37,344 nucleotides of DNA from NCBI GenBank assembly GCA_945949525.1, contig CAMFES010000009.1, positions 1-37,344 of the forward strand. Reading direction: 5' to 3'. The DNA comes from an uncultured Veillonellaceae bacterium. Lineage in GTDB: Bacteria; Bacillota; Negativicutes; Selenomonadales; Selenomonadaceae. The notes beneath the pieces are model-generated. The model was not told where the DNA came from, did no database searches, and saw only the letters and a program-made list of their open reading frames with translations. Each line of letters starts with the position of its first letter. Position 1 is the first letter of the stretch. Below, in pieces: positions 32,422 through 34,642 of the stretch. Position numbers and translations under genes: made by a program.

Positions 32422-32450
32422 TTGACACTTTTTTCATTCAGTGCTAATAT
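32422..32450 (+). promoter_or_regulatory. Strong promoter of the cobalamin riboswitch transcript
   Basis: TTGACA (32422-32427), 17-base spacer, TGC then TAATAT (32445-32450). The start of transcription would be near 32457, about 45 bases before the riboswitch core. Confidence 0.8.
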
Positions 32451-32500
32451 AGAGCCGTAAGTTGAATTTGTTGAACCTATAGAACTGAATATGGATTGGA

Positions 32501-32692
32501 ACAGGTGCCTATATGCCTTGTGCATAGGCCTAACAAGAGAAGCCGGTTTGAGGCCGGCGCGGTCCCGCCACTGTAGCAGGGAGCAAAACCACATTTTATG
32601 TCACTGGAGCAATCTGGGAAGGCGTGGTTGAGCGATGATCTGGAGCCAGGAGAACTGCCTGTTTAGCAATCACCGTTAGACCTGCGAGTGAT
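32501..32692 (+). promoter_or_regulatory. Cobalamin (B12) riboswitch
   Basis: Hallmarks of a cobalamin riboswitch are present in order: closing stem ACAGG (32501-32505) / CCTGT (32658-32662); the core GCGGTCCCGCCACTGT (32559-32574); the B12 box AGCCAGGAGAACTGCCTG (32644-32661); and, right after the closing stem, a hairpin ATCAC/GTGAT (32669-32673, 32688-32692) in the place of the L13 kissing-loop element. A transcription terminator follows at 32724-32752. High AdoCbl or MeCbl would be expected to cause termination. No protein gene starts within 530 bases of the aptamer. Confidence 0.92.
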
Positions 32693-32723
32693 GGGAAGGG
32701 GATTTTTTTACAACTGTGTGCAT

Positions 32724-32752
32724 AAATCCTGGCTTTTGGTCAGGATTTTTTT
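32724..32752 (+). terminator. Terminator of the cobalamin riboswitch
   Basis: AAATCCTG (32724-32731) pairs with CAGGATTT (32741-32748), followed by more T (to 32752). Its place 31 bases after the riboswitch hairpin makes it the likely expression platform. Confidence 0.82.
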
Positions 32753-32775
32753 GTGGCATGTTGGCGATGTATTTG

Positions 32776-32803
32776 TTGTACAATTTTGGGCAACTGATAT
32801 TGT
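32776..32803 (+). promoter_or_regulatory. Candidate promoter of a small RNA
   Basis: TTGTAC (32776-32781), 16-base spacer, TGA then TATTGT (32798-32803), an extended -10 promoter. The transcript would begin near 32810, exactly where the rod-like RNA structure starts. Confidence 0.4.
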
Positions 32804-32809
32804 TTGTGT

Positions 32810-32990
32810 GCCATAATGCAGTGCAAGGACCTTTCCTCATTGGCGGTAATGGCTTTGACGAAAGGTTTTTCTTTGTGGTTTCAGCGCTGCAAAGAAAGCA
32901 TTGCTCATACATTTCATTCATGGTTGCGGGTGCAGTGGACTGCACTCTGGCGACAGGGCCTCGGAGCAAGTTTCCGGGGCCCATTTATTT
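32810..32990 (+). ncRNA. Putative structured small RNA, rod-like, 6S-RNA-like
   Basis: This stretch has no convincing protein gene but can fold as one long rod. Closing helix: GCCA (32810-32813) / TGGC (32948-32951), then a 3x3 internal loop and TGCAGT (32817-32822) / ACTGCA (32939-32944). A short GACC/GGTT helix follows, then a large unpaired centre, GGTAATG (32845-32851) / CATTGCT (32899-32905), and a final stem TTTCTTTG (32868-32875) / CAAAGAAA (32890-32897). A terminator hairpin closes it at 32956-32982. A rod of about 140-180 nt with a wide central bubble is the architecture of 6S RNA, but I could not confirm conserved 6S bases. A competing local hairpin GTGCAG/CTGCAC (32930-32945) exists. 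The alternative is a small RNA fed by read-through from the cobalamin riboswitch. Confidence 0.4.
32956..32990 (+). terminator. Terminator of the putative small RNA
   Basis: GGGCCTCGGA (32956-32965) pairs over all ten positions with TCCGGGGCCC (32973-32982), one being T-G; the reverse-strand reading would have a C-A mismatch there, so + strand RNA is favoured. The tail ATTTATTTT is T-rich though broken. Confidence 0.6.
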
Positions 32991-33038
32991 TACAGCTCCA
33001 TAAATATTTTAAATCACAAGATAAATAACGCATAAGGC

Positions 33039-33088
33039 TATAACTAGAGGTTATAACGCGATGATAATGATAAAGGAAATATATCATT
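33039..33088. promoter_or_regulatory. Two inverted repeats upstream of the GntP-family gene
   Basis: TATAAC (33039-33044) / GTTATA (33050-33055) with a five-base spacer, and AATGATA (33066-33072) / TATCATT (33082-33088) with nine. Both are just upstream of the promoter at 33122 and are candidate regulator-binding sites. Confidence 0.35.
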
Positions 33089-33121
33089 TGCTATTATTGT
33101 TAACAAGTGCTAATTAGGTGC

Positions 33122-33150
33122 TTGACAATTATTTGGCATGCTGATATTAA
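33122..33150 (+). promoter_or_regulatory. Promoter of the GntP-family permease gene
   Basis: TTGACA (33122-33127), 17-base spacer, TGA then TATTAA (33145-33150). It shows the permease has its own promoter and need not depend on the cobalamin riboswitch. Confidence 0.6.
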
Positions 33151-33156
33151 TATATA

Positions 33157-33188
33157 AGCTGGCAGCTTTTGGGGATTGCCTGCCAGCT
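33157..33188 (+). other. Stem-loop in the permease mRNA leader
   Basis: AGCTGGCAG (33157-33165) and CTGCCAGCT (33180-33188) pair perfectly over nine bases with a 14-base loop. It lies at the likely 5' end of the transcript, without a T-run, so it may be a 5' stabilising hairpin or an operator. Confidence 0.55.
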
Positions 33189-33226
33189 GGATGTGTGTAG
33201 TGTGATTATAGGAGGAGTAAGATTTA

Positions 33227-34642
33227 ATGGACACAGCAATAATTTTTGTTGCCCTGATCGGTTTGATGGTAATGGCGTACCGGGGGGCATCTATTATTCT
33301 GATTGCACCAGTGTTTGCGGTGGTTGCCGCACTGGGCAGCGAGCATGCCTCACTGCCTGTATTCAGTGAGCTGTACATGACAAAGGCGGCTGAATATCTG
33401 AAAAATTATTATCCGATTTTTTTGTTTGGCGCAGTTTTTGCACGCCTGATGGAAAAGGGCGGCATGGCTGCTTCCGTAGCCGGCAAGATTATTGAGCTGC
33501 TGGGAGAAAAGAGAGCTGTGCTGGCGGTGCTTCTGGGCTGTGGTGCCCTGACCTACGGCGGCCTCAGCGTGTTCGTTGTTGCGTTTGTAATGTATCCTTT
33601 CGGTGCGGTGGTATTCAAGAAGGCGGATATTCCGAAGCGCCTTCTGCCTGCCGCGCTGTGGATGGGTATTTTTTCCTTCGCCATGGTTGCTATGCCGGGG
33701 ACGCCGCAGATTCAGAATATTATTCCTTCTTCTTATTTCGGTACATCTACCTGGTCCGGCATGGGCATAGGTATTTTTGCCACCGTTGTGTTCCTGCTGA
33801 TGGGCTGGGGCTGGATTTCCTTCCGTGCCAAGCGGCTGAAGGCAGCCGGTGAAGGGTATGGTCGTCACATTGAGTTCAGCCAGCGCAGGCACAAGATTCC
33901 CAATCCAAACTGGAAGGTTTCTGTTATTCCGTTGATTATGGTTATCGGGTTGAACGTTTTCCTGTCCAATCCCTTCAACTGGGATTGGGCCTTTCATTGG
34001 GACCAGGATGCTCTTGAGTCGTTGGCTCCTCTGAAAATCAGCCTGCTGGCTCATTCTGTAGCCAAGATTTCCGCCGGCTGGTCCATCACCATTTCATTGA
34101 TTTTGAGCAGTATTGTGGCGGCCATTATCGCCCGCAGGCATCTGCGCATCACTGATGGCATGATGTCAACCATCAACGGCTCCGCTATTTCTTCCTGCAG
34201 TGCCGTGCTGAATGTGGCCTCCGGTTATGCCTTTGGCTGTGTGGTTGTGAGCCTGGGCGGCTTTGTGGTCATCAAGGATTTGCTGCTGAATCTTGATTTT
34301 GGCGGCGGCCCGCTGTTTTCTGCGGTACTGACTACCAATGTAATGTGCGGCTTTACCGGTTCTGCCTCCGGCGGCCTGACCATCGCCCTGTCCATGCTGG
34401 GGGACCAGTGGGCGGCTATGGCGGCACAGGCCGGGATTCCTCTGGAGGTGCTGCATCGCATTGTGGCGATTTCTTCTATCGGCATAGATCCGGTGCCTCA
34501 TTGCGGCGCGCTGGTTACGATGCTGGCCATTTGCGGCTTGAGCCACAAGGACTCCTATGGAGATATTGCCATTCTGATGGGAATGAAGTTTTTGGTGCCG
34601 TTCCTGTGTGTAATTTTCTATATGGTGACGGGAATCGCCTAA
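33227..34642 (+). CDS. GntP-family permease
   Basis: A 471-residue membrane protein with about twelve to fourteen helices, matching the GntP (gluconate:H+ symporter) family. Recognisable are YPIFLFGAVFARLMEKGGMAASVAGKIIELLG (about 61-92), GGLSVFVVAFVMYPFGAVVFKKADIPKRLLPAAL, PGTPQIQNIIPSSYFGT, and the late SGYAFGCVVVSLGGFVVIKDLLLN and GSASGGLTIALSMLGDQW. Family substrates include gluconate and other sugar acids or hydroxy acids; the substrate here is unknown. The ATG at 33227 has AGGAGGAG 7-8 bases upstream. It is a single-gene unit with its own promoter and terminator. Confidence 0.87.
   Translation: MDTAIIFVALIGLMVMAYRGASIILIAPVFAVVAALGSEHASLPVFSELYMTKAAEYLKNYYPIFLFGAVFARLMEKGGMAASVAGKIIELLGEKRAVLAVLLGCGALTYGGLSVFVVAFVMYPFGAVVFKKADIPKRLLPAALWMGIFSFAMVAMPGTPQIQNIIPSSYFGTSTWSGMGIGIFATVVFLLMGWGWISFRAKRLKAAGEGYGRHIEFSQRRHKIPNPNWKVSVIPLIMVIGLNVFLSNPFNWDWAFHWDQDALESLAPLKISLLAHSVAKISAGWSITISLILSSIVAAIIARRHLRITDGMMSTINGSAISSCSAVLNVASGYAFGCVVVSLGGFVVIKDLLLNLDFGGGPLFSAVLTTNVMCGFTGSASGGLTIALSMLGDQWAAMAAQAGIPLEVLHRIVAISSIGIDPVPHCGALVTMLAICGLSHKDSYGDIAILMGMKFLVPFLCVIFYMVTGIA

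Follow-up and report, generated by a model that had tools for sequence, protein, structure and literature searches.

The cobalamin riboswitch in the window (the whole stretch of 37,344 nucleotides analysed here) probably governs a stand-alone small RNA (sRNA) that acts in trans on the mRNAs for B12 synthesis and uptake. Riboswitches are usually cis elements; in this case, a conserved base-pairing RNA appears to let a metabolite riboswitch act in trans on its own biosynthetic pathway, so that a single sensor could control genes elsewhere in the genome. The window belongs to contig C9 of a draft genome from Anaerovibrio, a rumen-type genus of the Selenomonadaceae (G000; assembly 82.6% complete). 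The following features were located in it:

32422-32450, + strand: promoter of the unit, TTGACA-17-TAATAT with a TG before the -10 (10/12 in the consensus scan; conserved in the aligned relatives)
32486-32676, + strand: cobalamin riboswitch aptamer, RF00174 (104 bits)
32644-32651, + strand: B12 box, AGCCAGGA, inside the RF00174 aptamer
32724-32748, + strand: T1, the riboswitch terminator (consensus scan), with its 5' arm, TCCTGGCT, at 32727-32734
32830-32870, + strand: T2, a hairpin CCTTTC...GAAAGG followed by TTTTT (pairing kept and letters changed in relatives)
32868-32897, + strand: hairpin A of the putative sRNA, stem TTTCTTTGTGG/CTGCAAAGAAA, loop TTTCAGCG (covariation)
32898-32919, + strand: putative seed of the sRNA, GCATTGCTCATACATTTCATTC, with the near-invariant stretch GCAUUGCUCAUACAUUUCAUUC (conservation; complementary to the cbiF leader of the same genome)
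32956-32992, + strand: T3, the putative sRNA terminator, a GC-rich hairpin (32956-32982) with a T-rich tail (consensus scan; hairpin kept in relatives with a different sequence)
33122-33153, + strand: promoter region of the permease, TTGACA at 33122 and TATTAATAT near 33145-33153 (conserved in 15/15)
33227-34642, + strand: neighbouring permease open reading frame, not part of the unit (weak CitMHS match, below the cut-off)

The aptamer aligns to RF00174 over its full length (model positions 1-189, E 3.5e-25), and its score compares with a gathering score of 31.5. The 5' arm of T1 can pair at 8 of 8 positions with the B12 box and is a possible antiterminator, and a compensatory version of the box and the arm (AGTCAGGA/TCCTGACT) is found in two loci, L009 and L010. 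This anatomy is that of an OFF switch with read-through in the absence of B12, from which transcription, the B12 response and corrinoid binding are inferred. With B12 bound, the B12 box would stay in the aptamer and T1 would end transcription; without B12, the box would pair with the T1 arm and the polymerase would continue past hairpin A and the seed as far as T3, whose hairpin has 11 pairs, 8 of them G-C, so that the sRNA would be made. T2, whose role is not established, may serve as another terminator or as a site for processing; it precedes the seed and might stop transcription there, which is a caveat to the trans-acting sRNA. The consensus scans alone are weak evidence (8 promoters vs 3.8 in shuffles, 8 terminators vs 4.2), and in the window the -10 of the permease promoter falls under their threshold. 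The layout is confirmed by conservation, which is decisive: the whole order of promoter, riboswitch, T1, conserved element, and T3 is kept, ahead of the same permease, in 15/15 aligned same-genus genomes, whose loci were collected by DNA similarity. An initial annotation of this DNA had described a promoter, a full cobalamin riboswitch, a terminator, another terminator-like hairpin at 32956-32982, and a protein gene from 33227 with its own TTGACA at 33122, and each of these is borne out, although that promoter's -10 is weak in the window. T2, the covarying hairpin A, and the ultraconserved stretch at 32898-32919 lie beyond what it had described.

In the alignment of the 15 same-genus loci, a near-identical block occupies approximately 32868-32925 between T2 and T3, and it is present in a single copy in the window's genome. 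Between species, the block differs by indels of 1 nt and 5 nt and is therefore non-coding; a protein-coding gene in the interval was rejected on account of these indels and of the open reading frame 32716-33003, which has no Pfam match. With its own promoter and terminator and no conserved open reading frame, the element has the marks of an sRNA, and that it is an sRNA rather than a lost gene is well supported, albeit from the DNA alone and without expression data. In hairpin A, 10 of the 11 pairs change on both sides, and none of 500 shuffles was as good; 96.0% of the cells are paired, a figure that drops to 80.3% in shuffles and to 60-65% in slid controls. These values are somewhat favourable, as the alignment had been fitted to the model. 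The invariance of the seed likewise stems in part from a collection of loci selected by pattern, but the DNA-similarity and covariance-model searches are independent of that filter. In G003 and G011, a terminator-type hairpin stands in place of hairpin A, directly 5' of the seed. No existing Rfam family scored above its gathering score in 32677-33260, where only sub-threshold chance matches were obtained, and a description of this sRNA family was not found in the open-access literature.

An exact-pattern scan for the core in 84,980 genomes gave 39 stretches, of which 32 were judged genuine; these come mostly from named Selenomonadaceae, namely Anaerovibrio, Schwartzia, two labelled Megamonas, and uncultured members. 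The other seven (L041, L042, L054, L058, L061, L063, and L065) were set aside as chance. Because the pattern scan selects for the core, we built a covariance model, R1, from the hairpin and the seed without any riboswitch sequence. R1 matches 75 of 300 Negativicutes genomes, mostly Selenomonadaceae and a few from other families, and a cobalamin riboswitch lies just upstream on the same strand for 84 of the 92 R1 matches; Rfam confirmed it in all 16 loci tested. The eight riboswitch-less matches comprise two targets, five that are among the weakest, and L173, a good match without a detected riboswitch. The sRNA occurs across a bacterial family that is common in rumen and gut. Two tandem sRNA copies with slightly different seeds share one upstream B12 riboswitch, at a spacing of ~120-300 nt, in L126, L128, L129, L130, L138, and L160. 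G028, which belongs to another family, has two copies (L107 and L108), each with its own B12 riboswitch and with the seed variants CATTGCTCATATATT and CATTGCTCATAAATT, so the sRNA is not limited to Selenomonadaceae.

The two riboswitch-less R1 matches that are targets (L196 and L197) run antisense to the 5' region of cbiL (TIGR01467, above the cut-off), and the site in the cbiL mRNA, GAAATGTATGAGCAATAATCTTTGCAG, is complementary to the seed and to part of hairpin A. G003 also has a cbiL site, in otherwise diverged sequence. We rejected cbiL as a universal target, the site being present only in G001, G003, and G014. In the window's genome, a search for the 22-nt seed complement with up to 3 mismatches returned only the sRNA itself; a site in the cbiF leader, GAAATGTATGGGCAGTG, surfaced with the 15-nt core and was recognised after the cbiL sites had been found as antisense R1 matches. 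This site (G000:C7:40448-40464, outside the window) is the complement of the seed if two G:U pairs are allowed, and is located 58 nt 5' of cbiF (TIGR01465, above the cut-off), between cbiT and cbiF of a cbiD-E-T-F-G cluster in which D, E, T, and G are named from sequence resemblance only.

The site pattern GAAATGTATGRGCA gave over 130 matches in 161 genomes of the family, as against 2 for the reversed pattern. Most of them are the sRNA itself, and many of the non-sRNA matches that were fetched lie in leaders of B12 genes, including cbiF and cbiL. The site is found in 16 CbiK-gene leaders from 16 genomes of a related genus (two of the genes checked as PF06180, the others assigned by shared sequence), and also in the leaders of three periplasmic binding proteins (PF01497) and one SLH porin; some sites lie inside coding sequence or ahead of unrelated genes (nuoF-like, HTH). 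In Selenomonas-type genomes that carry the sRNA, a search with the 20-mer complement returned the sRNA plus scattered weak matches only; that no target emerged there counts against trans action, as do the sites in coding sequence or ahead of unrelated genes. The complementarity of the sRNA to the unlinked mRNAs of cbiF, cbiL, and cbiK is conserved, and actual pairing is inferred from it. The seed would pair with sites ~40-105 nt upstream of the start codons of cbi genes; its partner would be cbiF in the genome of the window, cbiL in three further members of Anaerovibrio, and cbiK together with a periplasmic binding protein in the related genus. Among the other sites, GAAATGTATGAGCA in L297, L298, L299, L300, and L302, which come from another genus that has the sRNA, overlaps the Shine-Dalgarno (SD) sequence and the initiation codon of a nuoF-like gene (PF01512), and by its position this gene is a possible repressed target. 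In three related genomes (L230, L231, and L304 in G007, G002, and G015, respectively), an exact seed-complementary intergenic site precedes a small HTH gene.

No cis B12 riboswitch was detected in the 27 target sequences scanned. In contrast, the CbiK loci of Anaerovibrio (L057) and G028 (L109) do have one; they share the target gene family and the control by B12 with the present system, but their riboswitch stands in cis and is absent from the leaders that carry the sRNA site. If the sRNA model is true, the system would show how control by a riboswitch can move from cis to trans, with cbiK under a cis riboswitch in some genera and bearing an sRNA site in another.

The cbiK leaders indicate what the pairing might do. 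In 13 of 15 cbiK loci, a -35/-10 pair puts the transcript start just ahead of an anti-SD arm, which is followed by the site and then by the SD. The cbiK leaders keep the ribosome site concealed in a hairpin. The anti-SD arm varies between genomes (CTCCTC, CCTTGAA, CCTTTGC, and CCCTTTAACTT), and its SD partner varies along with it. The sRNA 3' of the seed varies in step: GCUGAGGA against UCCUCAGC, GCCGAGGA against UCCUCGGC, and CAAAUUGCCGG against CCGGCAAUUUG. In this flank, outside the 14 nt that were searched for, cognate pairing reaches -13.0 kcal/mol vs -9.2 kcal/mol for non-cognate pairing (permutation p 0.0001, n = 19), whereas the difference in the other flank is not significant (p 0.11). 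Predicted SD openness, computed for 15 cbiK leaders, rises from 0.13 for the leader by itself to 0.57 when the cognate sRNA segment is added, and shuffled RNA gives 0.15 (Wilcoxon 6e-5). Owing to the relatedness of the genomes, both the permutation and the Wilcoxon p values overstate the case; even so, no fewer than three distinct matched forms are left. Blocking the loop site alone fails to open the majority of cbiK leaders in the model, and pairing that reaches the anti-SD arm opens them. In these leaders, the sRNA would pair with the anti-SD arm as well as with the site and free the ribosome site, and B12 genes without their own riboswitch would be expressed more strongly when B12 runs short. 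On the prediction of the folding model, activation of cbiK is the most likely effect of an sRNA produced under B12 scarcity. DsrA and RprA are sRNAs that activate rpoS by freeing a ribosome site that is otherwise hidden; the pairing predicted here, with the arm of the leader hairpin that is inhibitory, is similar, but the transcription of the present sRNA is itself gated by a metabolite riboswitch. Pairs of sRNA and target with natural compensatory changes make the proposal testable.

Activation is predicted for cbiK only. In the case of Anaerovibrio cbiF and cbiL, including those of the window's genome, pairing of the sRNA with the leaders is likely, but the folding model predicts no opening of the ribosome site and the direction of the effect is not predicted; the predicted openness with the sRNA mostly falls. 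This behaviour is what would be expected if the same B12-gated sRNA repressed its targets, through pairing near the ribosome site or through decay, as fine-tuning or B12-sparing, and the site over the SD and start of the nuoF-like gene in one genus has the classic geometry of repression. Nevertheless, cutting B12 production during a B12 shortage would be self-defeating, and in the model the cbiK leaders are shut by themselves and open once the cognate sRNA is present, so that we regard repression as unlikely, without discarding it. We lean towards activation throughout the family, namely a trans relay in which the seed and an SD-mimic of the riboswitch-gated sRNA would open the cbiK, cbiF, cbiL, and binding-protein leaders, replacing cis riboswitches.

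The few known B12-gated regulatory RNAs, EutX/Rli55 and AspocR, target either a regulator protein or the gene for it. EutX of Enterococcus and Rli55 of Listeria are riboswitch-gated RNAs that capture the ANTAR protein EutV via dual hairpins (PMC5821096). They resemble the present RNA in that the terminator of a B12 riboswitch decides on a longer, trans-acting non-coding RNA that is made without B12 (PMC5821096). The RNA of the window could likewise bind a regulator protein, with the mRNA matches being secondary: a B12 riboswitch is followed by hairpins and no gene, and an ANTAR protein gene is present in the window's genome. However, the most conserved part here is not two hairpins but an unpaired stretch complementary to cbi mRNAs, and the cognate pairing with mRNA covaries. 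Furthermore, ANTAR proteins were not found in any of four genomes of another genus (drafts, 85-94% complete) that have the sRNA together with cbiK sites or relatives of such sites. We consider such a sponge improbable, and EutX and Rli55, which the initial annotation had named as precedents, hold as analogies but not as the same mechanism. The single ANTAR-domain protein of the window's genome is encoded at G000:C105:560-715, outside the window. AspocR of Listeria is an RNA of ~1,400 nt, antisense to the neighbouring pocR, which it represses (PMC8079631); there too, B12 causes premature termination at the riboswitch and the full-length RNA base-pairs on a B12-related gene (PMC8079631). Compared with AspocR, the present RNA is short, its apparent targets are several and unlinked, and its predicted effect on cbiK is activation. 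It is not antisense to an adjacent regulator gene, the next gene in the window being on the same strand and the neighbours varying between genera.

The riboswitch and the later hairpins might instead form a cis leader that regulates read-through into the permease, which follows the unit in all 15 same-genus genomes. Between them, however, lie T3 and the permease's own conserved promoter, and in other genera the unit is found without the permease, ahead of convergent or unrelated genes. The closest gene downstream is convergent to the unit in L046, L049, L051, L056, L068, and L075, and the riboswitch there therefore has no adjacent mRNA to control. Read-through into the permease was ruled out on these grounds, and a cis leader is very improbable. 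The initial annotation had suggested that an RNA, not a protein, is under the control of the riboswitch; the gene-less order across the genus and these convergent arrangements uphold this, transcription being inferred. It had also considered deletion of the gene, and had named a conserved coding gene in relatives that is degraded here, or B12-dependent transcripts running on into the permease gene, as what would refute its reading. A riboswitch left over from a deleted B12-controlled gene would agree with the lack of an interval match to the known protein families searched, but we give it next to no credence and rule it out by synteny, as none of the 15 aligned same-genus loci has an intact or degraded protein gene in the interval, which is highly conserved and structured.

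Two further arrangements were observed around the unit. An inverted repeat, TATAACTAGAGGTTATA, at 33039-33055 of the window, 5' of the permease promoter, is kept in most relatives and is a possible operator. In L044, L055, L057, L060, and L071, a second B12 riboswitch lies ~2 kb past the sRNA and is followed by cbiK and, in some of these loci, by an ExbB-like gene; the window has a dicarboxylate symporter-family gene at this position.
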